A stretch of DNA of 64,000 nt from Maribacter aestuarii (lineage in GTDB: Bacteria; Bacteroidota; Bacteroidia; Flavobacteriales; Flavobacteriaceae), in contig NZ_CP107031.2 of assembly GCF_027474845.2 (NCBI RefSeq), forward strand, positions 3,735,001 through 3,799,000. The letters run 5' to 3'. This document shows positions 2,648 to 11,330 of the stretch, one piece after another. The position numbers and the translations under genes were made by a program. The notes beneath the pieces were generated by a model that saw nothing but the letters and a program-made list of their open reading frames with translations, was not told the origin of the DNA and ran no database searches. Positions within the stretch are counted from its first letter, which is position 1. Each line of letters begins with the position of its first letter.

Positions 2648-3622
2648 TTGCAACTTCAATTATTCTATATGTTGGTCTGGATTGTTTTTATAGCGTGTGT
2701 TTTAATCTTCTTAGCTTTGGATTTAGGGGTTTTTAACAAGGAAGACCATGTTATAAAATCCAAGGAGGCCGGAATGTGGACTGCTATTTGGGTGACCATA
2801 GCCTTATCCTTTAGTGGAGTCATTTACTGGCTATTTTCTTCCGGTCTAACGGAAAACCCTACCAATCTAACGCCTAACGACGCCGTGTTAAAATACATCA
2901 CCGGCTATTTAATAGAACTCTCCCTGAGCGTTGACAATGTGTTTGTTATCGCGGTCATATTTACAGCATTTAAGATTCCACCCATATTCCAACATCGGGT
3001 ACTTTTTTGGGGAATTCTGGGTGCCATTATTTTTAGGGCATTGATGATTTTATTCGGGGTCGCCCTAATTACCCAGTTTGAATGGATTATTTATGTGTTC
3101 GGTGTTTTTCTGCTCTATACAGCCTACAAGATGCTGAAAAGTGGTGATACCGATTTTGATCCAAAAGAATCCGTCGTCTTCAAGCAATTAAAAAAGATAT
3201 ATCCCATTACCACAACCATTGATGGACATAATTTTTTCGTCCGTAAAATGGGGGTAAAAGCCGCTACACCACTCTTTGTTGCGTTGATTGTAATAGAACT
3301 GACCGATATTCTTTTTGCCTTGGACAGTATTCCGGCTATTTTGGCGATTACCGCTGATCCGTTCATTGTTTTTAGCTCAAACATATTGGCAATACTCGGA
3401 TTGCGATCCATGTATTTCCTTATTTCAAGGATGCTTGCCAAATTCCGTTATATCAATTACAGTCTGGTGGTCATTTTAGCCTTTGTGGGCTCAAAAATGC
3501 TGGTTTCCCATTATATTGAATTTCCGGAGTGGGTGTCCCTTACGGTTATTTCAGTGTCCCTTATTTCAGGTATATTGGCATCCCTCTATATTCCTGAGAA
3601 AGGAAAGGTTTTAGATAGTTAA
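2648..3622 (+). CDS. TerC/Alx family integral membrane protein
   Basis: This 324-residue polytopic protein has about nine hydrophobic segments. TerC/Alx hallmarks are the intramembrane acidic motifs ALDLGVF (about 22-28), ELSLSVDNVFVIAVIF (about 91-106) and ELTDILFALDSIPAILAIT (about 218-236). The family is implicated in manganese export and in supporting metalation of secreted enzymes. The longest frame begins with TTG at 2648, where an AAGG stretch lies about 10 bp upstream. An ATG at 2669 (residue 8) is the alternative start. It is a single gene and no riboswitch-like leader is obvious. Confidence 0.85.
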   Translation: MQLQLFYMLVWIVFIACVLIFLALDLGVFNKEDHVIKSKEAGMWTAIWVTIALSFSGVIYWLFSSGLTENPTNLTPNDAVLKYITGYLIELSLSVDNVFVIAVIFTAFKIPPIFQHRVLFWGILGAIIFRALMILFGVALITQFEWIIYVFGVFLLYTAYKMLKSGDTDFDPKESVVFKQLKKIYPITTTIDGHNFFVRKMGVKAATPLFVALIVIELTDILFALDSIPAILAITADPFIVFSSNILAILGLRSMYFLISRMLAKFRYINYSLVVILAFVGSKMLVSHYIEFPEWVSLTVISVSLISGILASLYIPEKGKVLDS

Positions 3623-3638: not shown

Positions 3639-4079
3639 TTACTTATCTATTATTTTTTTTCTGAAAACGGTATGATAGATTTTTTCGACTAGCCAATTTC
3701 CCAAAGGGAAATACAACGCAAAAAATAAGGCCATTCCCAGCGCGAACGTACGTAACCCAAAAAATTGATCTAATAGATTGTTGGGATACGCGTACGACGT
3801 TTCTAAAGCGTATCCTCCAAATTCCAATAGGCCCATAGCTATTAGGCCATAAGCATATTGCGTATGAAAAGGAAGTTTTCTAAGTAATAGGGAAATAGGT
3901 ACCATATACAGCAGGTAACAGGTTACCACCTGCCACCAATAAGTGAACTTTGCAATTTCCATTTGGGTGCCGAACCAGTTCATAATCATGCCCCATAAAA
4001 AATAGACAACACAATAGATTAAAATCAACTTGCTATCAACGTTGAATTTTACTCTGGCCCATTTCAGAAATTCAATCAT
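3639..4079 (-). CDS. Small integral membrane protein, last gene of the polyketide operon
   Basis: This encodes 146 residues with about four membrane segments (roughly 17-36, 48-66, 75-90 and 110-130) and a basic C-terminal tail. I recognise no family. It overlaps the preceding membrane protein gene by 8 bp, so the two are translationally coupled and belong to the operon that makes the putative type III polyketide product. A role in export or in anchoring the enzymes is inference from position only. It converges on the TerC-type gene. Confidence 0.65.
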   Translation of the reverse strand: MIEFLKWARVKFNVDSKLILIYCVVYFLWGMIMNWFGTQMEIAKFTYWWQVVTCYLLYMVPISLLLRKLPFHTQYAYGLIAMGLLEFGGYALETSYAYPNNLLDQFFGLRTFALGMALFFALYFPLGNWLVEKIYHTVFRKKIIDK

Positions 4080-4302
4080 TTTTCTTGAGTTGGTTTTCTA
4101 AACTACTTGCTTTTAGTAGTAGTATAAGACCAAACATTACTATGCAAAGGGAAACTGTTCCGGCAAGCACCCATTGATACCAAGGGGCGTCTCCATATTT
4201 TAGAAAACCGCTTTCGACAAGACAGCACAGACCAAAACCGAAGAGGGAGGCCCCTATTCCACCCATAAACAACCATTTCTTTCGAAGTTTTTTCCGCTCC
4301 AT
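4072..4302 (-). CDS. Small two-helix membrane protein
   Basis: The ATG at 4302 gives 76 residues: a basic N-terminus (MERKKLRKKW), a first membrane helix with a CC pair (about 10-29), a second helix (about 42-61) and a charged tail. The frame stays open upstream to 4344, but that would overlap the ACP gene, so the start 14 bp after the ACP stop is preferred. It overlaps the next gene by 8 bp. The function is unknown and its operon position suggests a membrane partner of the biosynthetic enzymes. Confidence 0.65.
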   Translation of the reverse strand: MERKKLRKKWLFMGGIGASLFGFGLCCLVESGFLKYGDAPWYQWVLAGTVSLCIVMFGLILLLKASSLENQLKKND

Positions 4303-4315
4303 GGCAGTACTAGAT

Positions 4316-4570
4316 TTATAACTTACCGGTAAGTTTTGTGTCAATAATTTTTAAGGCATCCTTAACCGTAACCATTTGGTCCATGTCCTCGTTTTCCAAA
4401 CGAATGTCAAAGGCATCCTCCACGTCCAGGACAATATCCACTAGGTTAGCCGAATTGATATTCAGCTCATTAAGGAAATCGCTCTCAGGTGAAACCTCAT
4501 CTACGGAAACATCCTCCGGAAGGTATATTTTAATAATTCCCTTAAGCTTATTGTAGTGTTCTTCGTTCAT
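4316..4570 (-). CDS. Acyl carrier protein of the polyketide operon
   Basis: This 84-residue acidic helical protein has the ACP fold. Helix II follows the phosphopantetheine attachment serine, Ser40 in NINSANLVDIVL, and helix III contains EDAFDIRLENED. The usual Asp-Ser-Leu motif is replaced by Asn-Ser-Ala, so this is a specialised carrier rather than the housekeeping AcpP. It lies directly downstream of the KAS gene and in the same operon as dehydratase and reductase genes. It presumably carries the acyl chain that primes the type III synthase. Confidence 0.85.
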   Translation of the reverse strand: MNEEHYNKLKGIIKIYLPEDVSVDEVSPESDFLNELNINSANLVDIVLDVEDAFDIRLENEDMDQMVTVKDALKIIDTKLTGKL

Positions 4571-4609
4571 TATTAATTGTGGATTATGCTAGGATTTACT
4601 GATGAAGAA

Positions 4610-5884
4610 TCAGTCGTTAAAAGCAGCAAAAATAACACATGCGTTTACATCTCCAAAACCAAAACTGGCCTTAGCAATGACTTTGGGTCTATAAGGAATC
4701 GTTTTCTGCGGAATCTTATGGTTAGCAACCATGGCGCTTATTTCCGGATGCACATCGTCACAGTTAACATTACCGAAAACCATTCCCTCCTCAAACTGCA
4801 AAACAGCGGCAACACATTCGATACTTCCGGCTGCAGCTAAACAATGCCCGATCATTCCCTTAAAAGAATTAATATAGGGAAAATCTGTACCACTACGACC
4901 CAAAGCAACGCTCCAATTCTTAATTTCTAGGGAATCTTTTACCGTAGCGGTTAAATGACCATTGATAACATCAATATCCTCGGCCGCTATTCCGGAATTT
5001 ATCACCGCATTGCGGATACAACGTTGCACTGCAATGCTGTTGGGTGCCGTCATGGAACCTTCGCCCATTTGTCCACCACTATTTATCTCGCCCCCCAATA
5101 CCTCTCCGTAAATTTTAGCTCCCCTTTTTTTTGCACTTTCCAAGGATTCAAGCACCAATGCCCCTGCTCCACTCCCAGGTACAAAACCGCTAGCAGTTGC
5201 ACTCATAGGTCGGCTTGCCTTAGTAGGTTGGTCGTTGAAATTTCTAGGAAGTATCCGCATAGCATCAAATCCGCCCCATACATAAGGCCCACTATCGCTA
5301 CAACTCCCCGTAAGCACAATTTCTGCCTTTCCGTTGGAAATGCGCTCAAAAGCCATCAAAATACCTTCTGTGCCGGTCGTACATGCAGATGAATTGGTTG
5401 TAACCTGATTACCGCAGCCCAGAATACCACCTAAATAAGCGCTAATACCACTAGCCATCGTCTGTATTACCGTGGTACTTCCCAAACGCCTGACATTTTT
5501 TTCATCCACCAGATAGATGGATTCCCTAAACTTGTCCACACCAAGAATACCTGTACCGAAGATTACACCGTAGTCCCAAAAAGGCTCGGATGAAGTATTA
5601 GCTGAAAGACCTGCATCTTTCCATGCGTCGACTCCTGCTATAACGCCGTAAACCAGTCCCGAAGCATTCAATCCACGCTGTTGTAGTGGAGTGAAGTAAT
5701 TGTTTAATACATTATCCCTAATCAATGGCTCTGCAGCGACTTGACAGCCAAAATTTAATTGTTCCAGTTGTGAGTGATGCCGTATCCCGGATTTACCGTC
5801 GGTCAAAGCTTGGGTAAAGTCTTTTATGCCTACGCCGTTCGGTGCACAGACTCCTAATCCTGTAATAACTACACGTTTTCCCAT
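4610..5884 (-). CDS. Beta-ketoacyl-ACP synthase, KAS I/II type
   Basis: This 424-residue thiolase-fold condensing enzyme extends an acyl chain with malonyl-ACP. The catalytic triad is visible: Cys168 in NSSACTTG, His310 in NGHLTATVKD and His347 in KGMIGHCLAAAG, with the conserved Lys342. The first His motif departs from the usual HGTxT, which suggests a secondary-metabolism enzyme rather than housekeeping FabF. The gene starts 1 bp after the FabZ-like stop and precedes the ACP gene by 39 bp, so all are in one operon. Together they would build a dedicated acyl chain. Confidence 0.9.
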   Translation of the reverse strand: MGKRVVITGLGVCAPNGVGIKDFTQALTDGKSGIRHHSQLEQLNFGCQVAAEPLIRDNVLNNYFTPLQQRGLNASGLVYGVIAGVDAWKDAGLSANTSSEPFWDYGVIFGTGILGVDKFRESIYLVDEKNVRRLGSTTVIQTMASGISAYLGGILGCGNQVTTNSSACTTGTEGILMAFERISNGKAEIVLTGSCSDSGPYVWGGFDAMRILPRNFNDQPTKASRPMSATASGFVPGSGAGALVLESLESAKKRGAKIYGEVLGGEINSGGQMGEGSMTAPNSIAVQRCIRNAVINSGIAAEDIDVINGHLTATVKDSLEIKNWSVALGRSGTDFPYINSFKGMIGHCLAAAGSIECVAAVLQFEEGMVFGNVNCDDVHPEISAMVANHKIPQKTIPYRPKVIAKASFGFGDVNACVIFAAFND

Positions 5885-5885
5885 C

Positions 5886-6332
5886 TTATTTAATTCCTAC
5901 CATTCCGGCAATTATGCCCTTGCACAGCAGATCGCCTGAAGCATTGTGCATTTTAACCTCACATTTAAGCTTATTAAACCTGTAATATAATTTTGTGGAG
6001 GTAACCGTCACTTTTTCTCTCGGAAAGACTGGTTTTAGAAATTCCATTTGAGAACTGCTTAGGCCTATTTTCACTTTTTCCAGGTTTATTTTTTCCTCTT
6101 TTAAAATAAACAGTCCCAAACAGACCAGACCAATTTGAGCACAACACTCGGTTAAAATAACCCCTGGCGTAACCGGATTTCCTTTAAAATGTCCCTTGTA
6201 AAAGTCTAAATCCTCACGAAAGGTAAAATTGCCCTTTGCCCCCGATTCATCCACATGTACTAGCTCATCTACAAAAAGAAAAGGATTTTGATAGGGTAAA
6301 TATGTCAAAAGAGACTTCGAATCCATACGCAT
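5886..6332 (-). CDS. FabZ-like 3-hydroxyacyl-ACP dehydratase
   Basis: This 148-residue single hotdog domain has the central helix and catalytic pair spaced as in FabZ: His48 in FYKGHFKGNPVTPG and Glu62 in GVILTE. It removes water from 3-hydroxyacyl-ACP in the cytosol. The start may be the ATG at 6332 or the one at 6326. It lies between the enoyl reductase-like SDR (9 bp upstream) and the KAS (1 bp downstream), as expected for a small chain-building module. Confidence 0.88.
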   Translation of the reverse strand: MRMDSKSLLTYLPYQNPFLFVDELVHVDESGAKGNFTFREDLDFYKGHFKGNPVTPGVILTECCAQIGLVCLGLFILKEEKINLEKVKIGLSSSQMEFLKPVFPREKVTVTSTKLYYRFNKLKCEVKMHNASGDLLCKGIIAGMVGIK

Positions 6333-6341
6333 TTCGCTAAC

Positions 6342-7121
6342 CTATCTTAAACTTTCGCCCCCGTCTACTTTGATAACGGTCCCTGTAATCCATTTGGCCT
6401 CTTCCCTTGTTAGTAAATAGACTGCATTTGCCACATCTTCTGGTGTAGTGAGGCGTCCGCTTGGATTACGTTTTAAGGCGTGTTCCTTAATTTTCTCTTG
6501 TCCGGGAATCATTTGAAAAGATTTGGTCAAGGTGATACCGGCTTGGATACAATTGGCCTTAATTCCCATCGGGGCAAATTCAAGCGCTATATTCCGGGTT
6601 AGTGCTTCCAAAGCTACTTTTGCAACGGAAACGGCTCCATAATTGGGCATGGCCTTGGTATTCCCTTCACTGGTAAAAGATATAATTCGTGAATCTTTTG
6701 AAAATAATCCTGCTTGTACCAATGCTTTTGTCCAATCATATAGGCTTAAAGCCATCGCCTCAAAAGTAATCTTGAAATCTTGATCGGATAAAGTGCTATT
6801 GGTTTCACTGTACATAGGCTTTAGACTCCCTTTGGCAATACTATGTACAAGCACCGATATTTTGTGGTCTTTTGGGAGTACTTCGCTCATTTCTTGAATC
6901 AACTCACTCCTTTTATCGGAATTGAGCGCATCCGCATTGAACGTTTTAACCTGAACACCAAAGTTTCTAATTTCTTCAAAGGCAGATTCAATCGCCTCCG
7001 CATCAGAACGCCTATCCCTGTGTACGATGAAGATATGATAACCATGCCGCCCCAGCTTTTTGGCAGTCGCTAAGCCCAGCCCGTTGCTTCCTCCTAAAAT
7101 CAAGGCCCAATTTTTGCTCAT
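6342..7121 (-). CDS. Short-chain dehydrogenase of the FabI/FabL enoyl-ACP reductase type
   Basis: This 259-residue Rossmann protein has a nucleotide-binding GGSNGLG near residue 10. It carries HSIA at 93-96, which resembles the FabI segment, and Tyr161 with Lys168, that is Y-x6-K rather than the Y-x3-K of ordinary ketoreductases. This spacing is characteristic of enoyl-ACP reductases. It probably reduces the trans-2-enoyl chain made by the neighbouring KAS and dehydratase. No separate FabG-like ketoreductase lies in the operon, so that step must be supplied from elsewhere or by this enzyme. Confidence 0.82.
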   Translation of the reverse strand: MSKNWALILGGSNGLGLATAKKLGRHGYHIFIVHRDRRSDAEAIESAFEEIRNFGVQVKTFNADALNSDKRSELIQEMSEVLPKDHKISVLVHSIAKGSLKPMYSETNSTLSDQDFKITFEAMALSLYDWTKALVQAGLFSKDSRIISFTSEGNTKAMPNYGAVSVAKVALEALTRNIALEFAPMGIKANCIQAGITLTKSFQMIPGQEKIKEHALKRNPSGRLTTPEDVANAVYLLTREEAKWITGTVIKVDGGESLR

Positions 7122-7148
7122 TTTAATTTTACTGGTTTAAGAATTCAA

Positions 7149-8204
7149 CTACCATTCCAATAATACGCGTTGTGCCGAAAAGCCAGGTCCAAAGCTTAAA
7201 ACAAGCCCCTGTTCTCCCTGCGGTATATCTTTTTCCAAAAAGCGTTCCAACACATATAAAACTGTAGCGCTACTCATATTTCCATATAACTGTAACACAG
7301 CTCTTGTGTCGTCTATATTCTTCCCCAGCTTACCAAAGAGCTCTTCTACGGTTTGCACGATTTTTTTACCGCCGGGATGAAATATTAAATGGTCTACTTG
7401 GGAAATATCACTTTCAAATTTTTCTAAAAAAGGATGTACGATCTCCGGAAAGTGTTCCGCAATGGTCTCAGGCACCACGGGATCTAATATCATTTTCAAG
7501 CCATGGTTGGTCAAATCAAAACCCATTAAGTGGGTAGCATCCTTAAAATGGTACATCTCCTCTCCAATAATGTGGGGGCCAGTGGCCTCCTCCTCTGACG
7601 ACAACAGTACACAGGCCGCCCCATCCCCAAATATCGCGGCACTGACCATATTCGCCATGGAATAATCGTTCTGTTGAAAAGTAGCCGTAGGACTCTCTAC
7701 GGCGACGAGCGCAATTCTTTTATTGGGATTTGACTTTAAAAAGTTATGGGCGTAAATAAGTCCCGAGACTCCCGCAGCACAGCCCATTTCAGTTACCGGC
7801 AGCCTTACAATATCCTTTCGTAAATCCAATCCATTAATAAGATAAGCGTCTAAGGACGGAATCATGATACCCGTACAACTAACTGTTATTATATAATCCA
7901 AGGATTCCGGTGCCCACTTCGCCTTTTTTAGTGCACGCTGCAAAACAGCAGTACCTAATTTTTTAGACTCCCTAACGTAAATAGCATTCTTATCCTCAAA
8001 AGAGGTAGACAGAAACACTTCCTCAATGGGCATTATGCCGTAACGCTTGTCAACCGCAGCACCTTCGAAGATTTTTACCACCTTTCTTTTAAACCGTTCT
8101 TCTTGTCCTTGAAGCCAAACGTCCACAAAAGGTATGATGTCCTTGGTATATCTACAATGCTCCGGCAGCTCTTTCGTTACCGCTACAATTTTCGTTTTGC
8201 TCAT
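7149..8204 (-). CDS. Type III polyketide synthase (chalcone synthase superfamily)
   Basis: This 351-residue thiolase-fold protein has the type III PKS catalytic triad: Cys142 in TEMGCAAGVSGL, His276 in LIFHPGGKK and Asn309 in YGNMSSATV. It also has the C-terminal GFGPG-like loop (SFGPGFSAQ). It would condense malonyl-CoA with an acyl starter and cyclise it to a resorcinol, pyrone or related ring. I chose the ATG at 8204 because it forms a 4-bp ATGA overlap with the methyltransferase stop; the frame extends 11 residues further upstream. The adjacent methyltransferase and flavoprotein genes recall the srs phenolic-lipid operon of Streptomyces griseus, but the product here is not known. Confidence 0.92.
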   Translation of the reverse strand: MSKTKIVAVTKELPEHCRYTKDIIPFVDVWLQGQEERFKRKVVKIFEGAAVDKRYGIMPIEEVFLSTSFEDKNAIYVRESKKLGTAVLQRALKKAKWAPESLDYIITVSCTGIMIPSLDAYLINGLDLRKDIVRLPVTEMGCAAGVSGLIYAHNFLKSNPNKRIALVAVESPTATFQQNDYSMANMVSAAIFGDGAACVLLSSEEEATGPHIIGEEMYHFKDATHLMGFDLTNHGLKMILDPVVPETIAEHFPEIVHPFLEKFESDISQVDHLIFHPGGKKIVQTVEELFGKLGKNIDDTRAVLQLYGNMSSATVLYVLERFLEKDIPQGEQGLVLSFGPGFSAQRVLLEW

Positions 8205-8923
8205 ATATTCGTAAGTCGCCTTTTTCTCATGATCCATACATATCTAAAGGCCCATTTCCATTTGATTTCATGTGACACATCGGGAATTTTCTTTGCCAAC
8301 AGTTCCAACTCTTCCCTTTTAAAGCCTTTTCTTATGGATATAGACCCGTCTATCTTAGCTACTTTTGTTTTGATAAAAATAAGCCCAAAAACCTGAAACA
8401 AATAATAAGCCAAGACACTTCGTTCAAGGTCGTTTATGACCACTCCAATAGTCGCCAGTTGTATAAAGCGCTTTAAGAATGATAAAATTTCCTCATTTTC
8501 AAAGTGATGCATGGTTAAAGTTGTAATTACGATATCGCAATTGAAATCGGAAAAATCAGCTCCCAAAATATCCTTTTTTGTATAGCTAATCTCAGGAAAA
8601 TCCGCTGTTTCTTGGCGTGCCAGTGTCAATGCATCGCCATTTAAATCTACACCGATGAACGATATTGGAATATTACGTTTCCGTGCCTCTACCGCAAGTG
8701 TTTTAAGCATATATCCGTCACCACACCCCATGTCCAAAATCGTATACGATTCTCTGGAAACCTCTCCAATCAGCTTGAATACAGCGTTCACCGTGATATC
8801 ATTCCCGCCAAGTATATGATTTACTCGATTTATGTCCTTAAAAATATATGGAAGGTCAGCACGGCTATCTTGAAAGTTATCCATGATTTCCAGACCATCA
8901 TGACGCTTTGTAAAATCAATCAT
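8201..8923 (-). CDS. Class I SAM-dependent methyltransferase
   Basis: This 240-residue protein has a Rossmann SAM-binding core: motif I LDMGCGDGYM (about 63-72), an acidic end of strand 2 (FIGVDLNG) and motif IV (CDIVITTLTMHHF). A hydrophobic C-terminal part (VLAYYLFQVFGLIFI) may touch the membrane or a lipid substrate. It overlaps the flavoprotein gene by 8 bp and the type III synthase by 4 bp, so the three are tightly coupled. The likely role is O- or C-methylation of the ring formed by the synthase. The acceptor is unknown. Confidence 0.87.
   Translation of the reverse strand: MIDFTKRHDGLEIMDNFQDSRADLPYIFKDINRVNHILGGNDITVNAVFKLIGEVSRESYTILDMGCGDGYMLKTLAVEARKRNIPISFIGVDLNGDALTLARQETADFPEISYTKKDILGADFSDFNCDIVITTLTMHHFENEEILSFLKRFIQLATIGVVINDLERSVLAYYLFQVFGLIFIKTKVAKIDGSISIRKGFKREELELLAKKIPDVSHEIKWKWAFRYVWIMRKRRLTNI
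8739..8750. repeat. Copy of 12-bp palindrome ATCGTATACGAT inside the methyltransferase gene
   Basis: An exact copy lies within the minus-strand methyltransferase gene, just before motif I. Confidence 0.6.
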
Positions 8924-10040
8924 AGTGTATGGGTTTTCCGTGCGTTCTGGCGATAACCGATTTTAACAGTCGCTCCGAAAATAATGAAGTCCTCAAGGCA
9001 GCATTCATCCAATTTCGATTCAGCAAAACATGTTGTAATTTGCGTCCAATCCATAGTCTATTCCTAAAAGTCCTATTCCAAGCAGCAGTGTATTCCTTTT
9101 CCATGGTCAACCGATCAAAATCGGTATTATCCAAATACTTTCGAATACTGAAAGCAGCAAGTTTTGCGCTATGAATGGCCATTGCCATACCGTTTCCGCA
9201 TAAGGGATGTATTAACCCAGCCGTATCCCCACACATGAGAATATGATTGACGATAGGCTGCTTTTTCTCAAAAGAGATTTGAGCTATAGATAGTGGCTTT
9301 TCGAAAATAGGCTCCGATTCGCCTAAAAATTCTTTCAGATATCTGTTTTTTGATACTACTTTCAAGTTGAAGTCCTGAATATCCGTATATTTTTTAAAAC
9401 TATTATAATGGACCAAATAACAAAAATTTACATCGCCTGTCTCTGTTTTTGATAATCCACCATAACCACCTTCAAAATTATGCAAGGCAACTAAATTTTC
9501 TGGGAACTTATCATTCCTATAATGCTCCTTCACGGCAAGCCAAGAGTGTTTCCTTGTCATAAAATCCCTTTGTAGGCTTTTATCCAGGCCCGAACGCTTT
9601 CCGTAGGCTCCTATTACTATTTTGGCTTTATAGGATATCCTTTCCTGACAATTAACCTGAAAATCGTCATTTTGAAATTTGATGTCTTGGACCTTTGTAA
9701 AATTAAAGGTCACGCCTTGCTCTTTTGCTCTTTCGTACAGTAAATAATCAAAGGCGTACCTGCTTATCCCCAACCCCCCCATAGAAAGCCTGGTAGTTAC
9801 TTTTTTACCGTCGACCGTGCTCATTTCAAAATTAGAGATTTTTACTGCCCCTTCGGCTTCGAGGTCTATACCAAGACCTTTTAAATAGGGTGTTACTTCC
9901 TGAGAGACGTATTCGCCGCATACTTTGTGATGAGGATAAGGATTAGTTTCAAAGACCAGGATTTCGTATCCATAACGCGATAAATCTATGGCTGCCGTTA
10001 GCCCTGCCAAACCTCCTCCCACTATGATTACATCATACAT
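8916..10040 (-). CDS. FAD-dependent oxidoreductase, geranylgeranyl reductase/monooxygenase-like
   Basis: This is the first gene of the polyketide operon and encodes 374 residues. It has an N-terminal FAD dinucleotide motif (VGGGLAGLTAA, residues 7-17), the PxxKxCGE segment of the geranylgeranyl reductase-like flavoproteins, and the second FAD motif GDTAGLIHPLCGNGMAMA. It could hydroxylate the aromatic ring or reduce double bonds; sequence alone does not decide. I chose the ATG at 10040, which gives MYDVIIVGGG; a GTG two codons upstream is possible. The gene is preceded by the terminator of the OmpA lipoprotein gene, so the operon probably has its own promoter in the short gap. Confidence 0.87.
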   Translation of the reverse strand: MYDVIIVGGGLAGLTAAIDLSRYGYEILVFETNPYPHHKVCGEYVSQEVTPYLKGLGIDLEAEGAVKISNFEMSTVDGKKVTTRLSMGGLGISRYAFDYLLYERAKEQGVTFNFTKVQDIKFQNDDFQVNCQERISYKAKIVIGAYGKRSGLDKSLQRDFMTRKHSWLAVKEHYRNDKFPENLVALHNFEGGYGGLSKTETGDVNFCYLVHYNSFKKYTDIQDFNLKVVSKNRYLKEFLGESEPIFEKPLSIAQISFEKKQPIVNHILMCGDTAGLIHPLCGNGMAMAIHSAKLAAFSIRKYLDNTDFDRLTMEKEYTAAWNRTFRNRLWIGRKLQHVLLNRNWMNAALRTSLFSERLLKSVIARTHGKPIHYD

Positions 10041-10067: not shown

Positions 10068-10106
10068 CAAAAAAAATCCCTGCAATAGCAGGGATAATTT
10101 TTAAGC
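10068..10106 (-). terminator. Terminator between OmpA lipoprotein gene and polyketide operon
   Basis: The inverted repeat ATCCCTGC-AATA-GCAGGGAT is flanked by A-rich and T-rich runs on both sides. On the minus strand it follows the OmpA stop at 10128 and ends in a run of eight T, so it should stop transcription before the flavoprotein gene. Confidence 0.8.
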
Positions 10107-10127: not shown

Positions 10128-10823
10128 TTATCCTTTTGTCTTTTGCACAGCTTCCTCTTTCAACTCTTCGCTGGCTACAATGGCAAGCTCTACCCTACGG
10201 TTTTTAGCTTTACCCTCTGTGGTGCTATTATCACCTACAGGCTGTGCTTCCCCGTACCATTTCGTGGTAAACCTAGTAGGAGACAAATTTTTGGATATCA
10301 GATAATTGGTAACCGATTCCGCTCGTTGTTTCGAGAGATTCATGTTATAGTCATCTGGACCGGCACTATCGGTATGACCTTCTACTAAAATATTGGAATT
10401 AGGGTATTCTTTAAAAATACCCGCTAATTTATCTAAAGTAGTTGCCGAGGCACCTTTAACATTGGATTTGTTGGTATCAAAGTAAACGCCCGCATCTTGC
10501 GTAAATGTTACGTTTATCCCTTCACCTACTCTTTTTACTTCGGCACCTGGAATCTCTTCCTCTATACGCTCCGCTTGACGGTCCATTCTATTTCCAATGT
10601 ATCCACCCGCAGCTCCACCTATGGCAGCGCCCAAGATTGCGCCGAGTGCCGTATTGTTTCCACTTCCGACGTTGTTCCCGATGACACCACCGATTACAGC
10701 ACCTCCTGTGGCACCTATAACAGCTCCTTTTTGCGTTTTATTGGCATTTTTAACCGTACTACAGCTCATTACTAAAGCCAAGGTCAATAAATAACTCGTA
10801 TTCTTTATTATTCTTGTTTTCAT
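10128..10823 (-). CDS. OmpA family lipoprotein with glycine-zipper domain
   Basis: This encodes 231 residues. A lipoprotein signal ends at Cys21 (VMSC). A glycine-zipper segment rich in GAxIGG repeats spans about residues 33-80 and may insert into the membrane. A C-terminal OmpA peptidoglycan-binding domain (about 105-215) includes the hallmark VEGHTDSAGPDDYNMNLSKQRA and the Arg-rich KAKNRRVELAI. It anchors the outer membrane to the wall. It lies 30 bp downstream of the lipocalin-like lipoprotein gene, so the two form a small operon. Confidence 0.9.
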   Translation of the reverse strand: MKTRIIKNTSYLLTLALVMSCSTVKNANKTQKGAVIGATGGAVIGGVIGNNVGSGNNTALGAILGAAIGGAAGGYIGNRMDRQAERIEEEIPGAEVKRVGEGINVTFTQDAGVYFDTNKSNVKGASATTLDKLAGIFKEYPNSNILVEGHTDSAGPDDYNMNLSKQRAESVTNYLISKNLSPTRFTTKWYGEAQPVGDNSTTEGKAKNRRVELAIVASEELKEEAVQKTKG

Positions 10824-10853
10824 GTTATTGTTTTTATTTAAAGTAGGTTTCTA

Positions 10854-11330
10854 TTATTTTTTTGTAAAATCATATATGACCGTAACGTTTTCACCGTCCA
10901 CATTTACAAAGGACTTTAACCTCATGGCTTGTTCGGTGAGTGTTTCGATATTCAAACGGTATCCGACACCACCGGATATATCATTTCTCTTTTCGTCAAT
11001 AAACTTAAATTGTAATTGACTTGTACCTCCTTGCTCTACTACAGACCATCTTATAAAGCGGTCTCCGGCGTTACATAGTGTAGAGGGACTTATAGTATAG
11101 CGTCCGGTACTGTTATTGTCCCTAAAAAACCAATCACTACCCTCAAGACAAATATCTTCAGCGTCGTTGAATAGCACAGCTTTAAAGTTTCCGGCATTAT
11201 TTGCAAAAGAAATATCGTTCAAAGTCCAAGAACCGCTTAACATGTTTCTTTTACCTCTAGCATCTTTTGATATTGCGCATGATGATACGATAAGCATCAA
11301 AGCACTTGCAAGCAAAATTATTTTTCTCAT
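10854..11330 (-). CDS. Lipocalin-like lipoprotein
   Basis: This 158-residue lipoprotein has a signal ending at Cys18 (VSSC). The mature part is a small beta-rich domain starting with LSGSWTLNDISF, and the paired cysteines in DICLEGSDWFF and STLCNAGDRF fit the lipocalin-like families common in Bacteroidota. The ligand is unknown. It is the first gene of a two-gene unit with the OmpA lipoprotein, which suggests a role at the outer membrane. Confidence 0.72.
   Translation of the reverse strand: MRKIILLASALMLIVSSCAISKDARGKRNMLSGSWTLNDISFANNAGNFKAVLFNDAEDICLEGSDWFFRDNNSTGRYTISPSTLCNAGDRFIRWSVVEQGGTSQLQFKFIDEKRNDISGGVGYRLNIETLTEQAMRLKSFVNVDGENVTVIYDFTKK

Follow-up and report, generated by a model that had tools for sequence, protein, structure and literature searches.

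A widespread flavobacterial operon places a type III polyketide synthase beside a discrete type II acyl-chain gene set

Planctomycete type III polyketide synthases (PKSs) produce pentadecyl- and heptadecylresorcinols when expressed in Corynebacterium glutamicum (PMC10896814). HidC of the hierridin pathway is proposed to start from a fatty acyl chain carried on acyl carrier protein (ACP), and CylI of the cylindrocyclophane pathway can use an ACP-bound substrate (PMC8086630). In Azotobacter vinelandii, the acyl chain of C22-C26 phenolic lipids comes from synthases whose genes adjoin two type III PKS genes (PMC13291983). In a study of 66 bacteria, type III PKS clusters ranked second in frequency (9%) among the antiSMASH classes of Flavobacteriaceae (PMC7440613), and type III PKS clusters in Reichenbachiella show little or no similarity to known clusters (PMC10752948). 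Here, we describe a nine-gene operon of Maribacter aestuarii that lies in a 64,000-nucleotide stretch of contig NZ_CP107031.2 (assembly GCF_027474845.2, positions 3,735,001 to 3,799,000). This stretch is referred to as the window, and its numbering is used throughout. The operon contains a type III PKS gene together with genes for a putative type II fatty acid synthase (FAS). We consider it reasonably probable that this is a phenolic- or pyrone-lipid operon in which acyl-ACP from the dedicated type II FAS primes the PKS, and the resulting product is hydroxylated and methylated.

An open reading frame (ORF) check of the window revealed nine uninterrupted ORFs that run from 10040 to 3639 on the minus strand of the host's 3.86-Mb, single-contig genome. 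They encode, in order, a flavoprotein, a methyltransferase, the type III PKS, a FabL-like short-chain dehydrogenase/reductase (SDR), a FabZ-like dehydratase, a beta-ketoacyl-ACP synthase (KAS), an ACP, and two membrane proteins designated M90 and M146. The initial annotation had placed nine genes in this order in a single transcript, with overlaps of 8, 4, and 8 bp. All nine minus-strand ORFs are intact, and the overlaps are reproduced when the PKS starts at 8204 and M90 at 4302. With these starts, the gaps between successive genes, read 5' to 3' in the operon, are -8, -4, 27, 9, 1, 39, 13, and -8 bp, a spacing from which it is likely that the nine genes form one transcript.

The distribution of these genes among 299 genomes of the family links the PKS to the acyl-chain genes. 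PKS matches (E <= 1e-10) were found in 122 genomes; 103 of these carry orthologues, defined by scores of at least 380 bits, and the other 19 score at most 188 bits. The operon KAS (E <= 1e-90) is present in 101 of the 103 PKS genomes and in 0 of the 196 PKS-negative genomes; these are raw counts in which shared ancestry is ignored. In one of the two exceptions (G293), the contig ends inside the KAS gene.

Gene order is similarly conserved. The loci of 80 relatives were taken, six of which were too short; gene content at the remaining 74 long loci was determined by BLAST within 6 kb. The initial annotation had suggested a search for conserved order in flavobacterial genomes, and the flavoprotein, methyltransferase, PKS, FabZ, KAS, and ACP genes indeed follow one order on one strand in 74/74 long loci. 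The FabL-like gene occurs in 65 of these loci, M146 in 35, M90 in 4, and a phosphopantetheinyl transferase gene in 7. A profile search of 18 further orthologous loci, picked by hand, recovered the six core genes in all 18 and the transferase after the ACP in 14; the Pfam ACPS family confirms the transferase in Spirosoma. The grouping of a type III PKS with an adjacent methyltransferase and flavoprotein, as in the hid and srs operons, is found at all 74 long loci and at 18/18 of the others. Three genomes (G190, G144, and G276) carry the operon in two separate pieces, with the break between the FabL-like gene and FabZ and neither piece lost; because the flanking genes of G190 agree with those of G144, the splits probably represent two events. 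The earlier view that the acyl-chain genes are tied to the PKS is borne out by this co-occurrence, order, and joint retention, and the conservation counts across genomes and loci indicate that the arrangement is more than chance. Judged from sequence comparisons, the PKS and the predicted chain builder form one unit.

A survey of 395 genomes of the phylum yielded 96 PKS matches at E <= 1e-40, of which 33 are orthologues (30 from the family itself and 3 from two further families of its class) and 63 are distant, with no more than 38% identity. No operon-type KAS, FabZ, or ACP was found at the 21 distant Bacteroidota type III PKS loci examined, which were 20 of the 63 plus L191, some of them cut by contig ends. 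Matches to both the methyltransferase and the flavoprotein occur at two distant loci: L170, where the flavoprotein match is strong, and L171, where it is weak. In a 60-row PKS tree, 36 FAS-linked PKSs lie on one side of a branch with support of 100/99; the tree is unrooted, its bootstrap had not settled, and several distant rows are long-branched. The stem of the clade is long (1.84 changes per column). PKSs of Spirosoma and Pedobacter (L106, L110, L112, and L175) are placed within the Flavobacteriaceae rows, a position with moderate support, and belong to the same operon, which suggests that the whole set was transferred between orders. All 232 plasmid records of type III PKSs are less than 60% identical to the PKS. 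Profiles found no operon-type KAS, FabZ, or ACP in three plasmid contexts from Rhizobium, Phyllobacterium, and an unannotated Streptomyces record; the last has a weak flavoprotein match of 66 bits.

The PKS itself (7149..8204, minus strand; 351 amino acids) scores 74.9 bits with Chal_sti_synt_N and 67.5 bits with Chal_sti_synt_C, the chalcone-synthase-type Pfam domains (cut-off 27 each). A longer ORF begins at 8237; the start at 8204 is likelier because the 30 best database matches (among the best 120 of 7787 matches) are all 351 amino acids long. Cys142, His276, and Asn309, named initially as the catalytic triad, are correct when counted from the methionine at 8204 and are identical to Cys153, His287, and Asn320 counted from the first ATG at 8237. 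The triad is conserved in 81/81 sequences (residue counts here and below cover the window and up to 80 relatives). The nearest named relatives are from Maribacter, with 90% identity in an uncultured Maribacter, and CylI is a distant relative (134 bits). Among solved structures the best match is Pks11 (185 bits), which is named an alpha-pyrone enzyme, whereas the operon resembles alkylresorcinol operons. The PKS of one genome (G150, locus L184) is split over two ORFs, which reflects a frameshift or sequencing error.

The KAS (4610..5884, minus strand; 424 amino acids) is a FabF-like paralogue that scores 273 bits on fabF (cut-off 494). Apart from it, the genome yielded one KAS, the housekeeping FabF, which passes this cut-off with 593 bits; the operon enzyme is thus distinct from the housekeeping one. 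Among rows that cover the sites, Cys168 is conserved in 78/78 and His310 and His347 in 77/77, with 2 (Cys) and 3 (His) gapped rows of 80 set aside. The dehydratase (5886..6332, minus strand; 148 amino acids), a FabZ-like 3-hydroxyacyl-ACP dehydratase with a FabA-like Pfam domain above cut-off, retains His48 and Glu62 in 81/81. The residues first assigned to these two enzymes were correct, and they are conserved. In the ACP (4316..4570, minus strand; 84 amino acids; PP-binding Pfam domain above cut-off), the expected phosphopantetheine site, Ser40, is kept in 77/77. The SDR (6342..7121, minus strand; 259 amino acids) is a FabL-like enoyl-ACP reductase whose highest-ranking NCBIfam model is FabL (NF005975), at 167 bits (cut-off 328); its best solved match, 3oic, is named enoyl-ACP reductase [NADPH]. 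All 72 copies have the Tyr-x6-Lys spacing typical of enoyl reductases and none has a Lys at Tyr+4, which makes it unlikely that the SDR is a ketoreductase. The KAS, dehydratase, enoyl reductase, and ACP of a type II FAS module are thus all present with intact residues, as discrete single-domain proteins rather than a multidomain type I enzyme. These residues, like the gene content, the co-occurrence, and the single PKS lineage, are observed directly.

Candidates for other activities lie elsewhere in the genome. A FabG equivalog (L145) scores 332 bits against a cut-off of 298. The phosphopantetheinyl transferase gene, which follows the ACP in many relatives, is not in this operon, and the one match to the transferase family PF01648 in this genome lies elsewhere. 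Neither an acyl-CoA ligase nor a thioesterase was recognized among the nine genes with Pfam and NCBIfam.

These features suggest a model, from which we infer the reactions, the direct hand-over from the ACP, the ring type, and the order of tailoring. The ACP would be charged with phosphopantetheine, and the KAS would condense malonyl-ACP onto an acyl primer. Keto-reduction would be supplied by the housekeeping FabG, and FabZ followed by the FabL-like reductase would complete each elongation cycle. The acyl-ACP may then pass its chain straight to the cysteine of the PKS, the simplest route given that the nine genes include no recognized ligase or thioesterase, and one in keeping with the ACP-linked substrates reported for CylI and proposed for HidC. 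The PKS would add approximately three malonyl units and close the ring, generating a resorcinol by aldol chemistry or a pyrone by lactonization. Hydroxylation of the ring by the flavoprotein and methylation by the methyltransferase would yield a hierridin-like or quinone-like alkyl lipid that the membrane proteins may place or move.

Several observations weigh against this model. Type III PKSs of the phylum that lie outside the PKS clade are at most 38% identical to the PKS, and thus neither ring type nor starter is settled by its sequence. The second exception to the co-occurrence of the PKS and KAS is genome G138, in which the PKS half is present and the operon KAS was not found. No ketoreductase was found in the operon, the only SDR of which has the Tyr-x6-Lys spacing. 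At 9 of the 74 long loci and 4 of the 18 further loci, the operon lacks the FabL-like gene (counted at the operon only), which remains with the PKS half in the split genomes; the reductase may therefore act in tailoring rather than in the FAS. M90 is rare (profile matches at 6 of the 98 related loci), and 59 of the 103 PKS-bearing genomes gave no M146 match, so neither membrane protein is essential everywhere. Finally, the role of the planctomycete oxidoreductase, a flavoprotein, was left open by the authors (PMC10896814), so that the nearest model provides no proof of the tailoring steps.

One alternative, which we regard as improbable, is that the PKS acts first, producing a small aromatic acid thioester from malonyl-CoA alone in the manner of DpgA, and that the KAS, FabZ, reductase, and ACP then lengthen this aryl starter in the fashion of flexirubin or aryl-polyene synthesis. 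DpgA, a dihydroxyphenylacetyl-CoA synthase that takes malonyl-CoA only, is the best NCBIfam model for the PKS, a result that also counts against the model above, and some loci that have the KAS, dehydratase, and ACP with no enoyl reductase recall aryl-polyene sets. However, the PKS scores 160 bits where the DpgA cut-off is 425, and the nine genes include nothing recognized as a loading enzyme, a chain-length factor, or a DpgB/C/D partner. Moreover, 65 of the 74 long loci retain the FabL-like gene. It is also conceivable, if quite doubtful, that the synthase links a pair of fatty acyl units or halts at a linear or beta-diketone product, in which case the lipid would not be aromatic. A type III PKS of barley wax condenses two fatty acyl units (PMC10638390), and the stem below the PKS clade is long. 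Yet the methyltransferase and the flavoprotein, the latter with fold matches to aromatic hydroxylases, are present at every long locus and suit a ring better.

In a third view, a spare housekeeping set of fatty-acid genes happens to adjoin a PKS that is fed by ordinary acyl-CoA or acyl-ACP. This would fit a genome that has its own FabF and FabG, as well as the three-gene hid and planctomycete operons, which work without such genes as far as the accessible text describes (PMC8086630, PMC10896814). A spare set would not be expected to be absent from every PKS-negative genome, as the operon KAS is (0/196), to keep both halves after the operon splits, or to leave no operon-type KAS, FabZ, or ACP at the 21 distant loci examined, and we consider this explanation very improbable.

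We return to the preferred reading of a phenolic- or pyrone-lipid operon primed by its own acyl-ACP, in which tailoring would fall to the first two genes. The flavoprotein (8916..10040, minus strand; 374 amino acids) is a group A flavin oxidoreductase that resembles geranylgeranyl reductase and QhpG, with NCBIfam scores below cut-off for both TIGR02032 (117 bits, cut-off 159) and QhpG (91 bits, cut-off 240). Its AlphaFold model has a mean predicted local distance difference test (pLDDT) score of 86.6, and Foldseek matches it to flavin monooxygenases and halogenases, among them PltA, RadH, PltM, squalene epoxidase, and 3-hydroxybenzoate 6-hydroxylase, as well as to the geranylgeranyl-reductase-like 3oz2. 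On the basis of this predicted fold, the flavoprotein is likely a ring hydroxylase. Although halogenases top the fold list, the WxWxIP motif of FAD-dependent halogenases occurs in 0/80 flavoproteins, and its absence makes a halogenase unlikely. The S-adenosylmethionine (SAM) methyltransferase (8201..8923, minus strand; 240 amino acids) matches Pfam Methyltransf_25 above cut-off and scores 116 bits with NF004851 (cut-off 243).

M90 (4072..4302, minus strand; longer ORF from 4344) is a small membrane protein with two helices predicted from hydropathy; a match also lies beside the split-off FAS half in L217. M146 (3639..4079, minus strand) is a membrane protein with no Pfam or NCBIfam match. Its model has a pLDDT of 75 (57-70 for other models), and no fold match was found at E <= 0.001. 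M146 is present in 44 of the 299 family genomes (E <= 1e-10), all 44 of which have the PKS; 17 of the 44 copies lie away from the operon, one of them (G177) on a separate 7.7-kb contig. No operon genes were found in the stretches fetched around these unlinked copies (L200-L216), except for a second, operon-related methyltransferase directly before M146 on the small contig of G177 (L216:3236-4123). In 9 of the 17 genomes, all of which carry the PKS, unlinked M146 adjoins a hydrophobic protein of 172-187 amino acids; other recurring neighbors, judged by eye, are mostly housekeeping genes. One may speculate, although we think it unlikely, that one in three of the sampled Flavobacteriaceae produces a membrane redox lipid not yet described. 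This would be a saturated-alkyl quinone or hydroquinone with a head group from the PKS, a tail from the ACP-dependent synthase, ubiquinone-like hydroxylation and methylation, and, often, placement by M146.

The operon is flanked by genes that recur in relatives. Just upstream on the same strand are genes for an OmpA-like protein and a 158-amino acid lipoprotein-like protein (10128-11330), and 63 of the 74 long loci likewise have the OmpA-like gene close to the operon and in the same orientation. A terminator-like hairpin (10076..10095, minus strand), a pattern match consisting of an 8-pair stem followed by seven T, separates the OmpA-like gene from the operon; nine terminator-like sites were found in the region, compared with 7.1 expected in shuffles. 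Downstream, a convergent membrane protein gene (2648-3622), which we take to be TerC-like, occupies the same place in many Maribacter-type loci. At the relatives' loci, nitroreductase-family matches occur in 8 of 149 overall. In Joostella and Galbibacter they adjoin the PKS half (L064:5445-6050, L067:5114-5719), and in two other genomes the detached FAS half (L217:7866-8474, L218:5067-5660). A gene for an MMPL-family transporter follows the phosphopantetheinyl transferase in two loci (L109:12477-14726, L186:1616-3868) and is beside the operon in no other of the 149. In L227 and L228 (G010 and G242), the FabZ and KAS frames start approximately 3 kb apart, with other sequence between them.

One PKS lineage with its own type II chain builder is thus common to 103 of 299 sampled family genomes. 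The operon points to a lipid class to seek in common marine bacteria, as well as to membrane proteins that await explanation. If the ACP feeds the PKS directly, the operon would parallel the Azotobacter system in a discrete, modular form and might be used to set chain length in phenolic lipids. In the literature searched, whose coverage excluded subscription papers and preprints, no description of the operon or its product was found.

Comparison with known systems places the operon among several relatives. The Streptomyces srs operon comprises a PKS, a methyltransferase, and a flavoprotein and is not known to have acyl-chain genes; the three activities are common to the operon described here. 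The flexirubin, dialkylresorcinol, and aryl-polyene clusters of Bacteroidota use discrete KAS, dehydratase, and ACP enzymes and are not known to have a type III PKS at their core. We rejected assignment to any of these three classes, and found no such cluster in this genome, because the only other KAS found is FabF. As in hidA-hidB-hidC of picocyanobacteria and the planctomycete operon, gene content brings a methyltransferase, an oxidoreductase, and a type III PKS together. Compared by description, those three-gene operons differ in that the accessible text of their reports names no KAS, FabZ, enoyl reductase, ACP, or phosphopantetheinyl transferase.

The Azotobacter ars genes share with this operon the association of dedicated acyl-chain genes with a type III PKS (KAS in 101/103). 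Direct transfer of starters was reportedly described by Miyanaga in 2008, according to a title cited in the Azotobacter work. The chain builder of Azotobacter is of type I and resembles polyunsaturated fatty acid (PUFA) synthases, whereas separate type II enzymes are found here. The cylindrocyclophane cluster (cylB ACP, type I PKSs, and cylI type III PKS) likewise brings an ACP-borne chain to a resorcinol-making type III PKS, but there CylI receives its chain from ACP-bound decanoate and type I PKSs, and dimerization follows (PMC8086630). The initial interpretation is therefore upheld in tying the acyl-chain genes to the PKS, and the tailoring trio matches the hierridin and planctomycete operons; an acyl supply encoded with the PKS is not unique, given the Azotobacter and cyl systems. 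We conclude that the operon is real and widespread and that it probably directs a phenolic or pyrone lipid with a discrete type II chain supply of its own.

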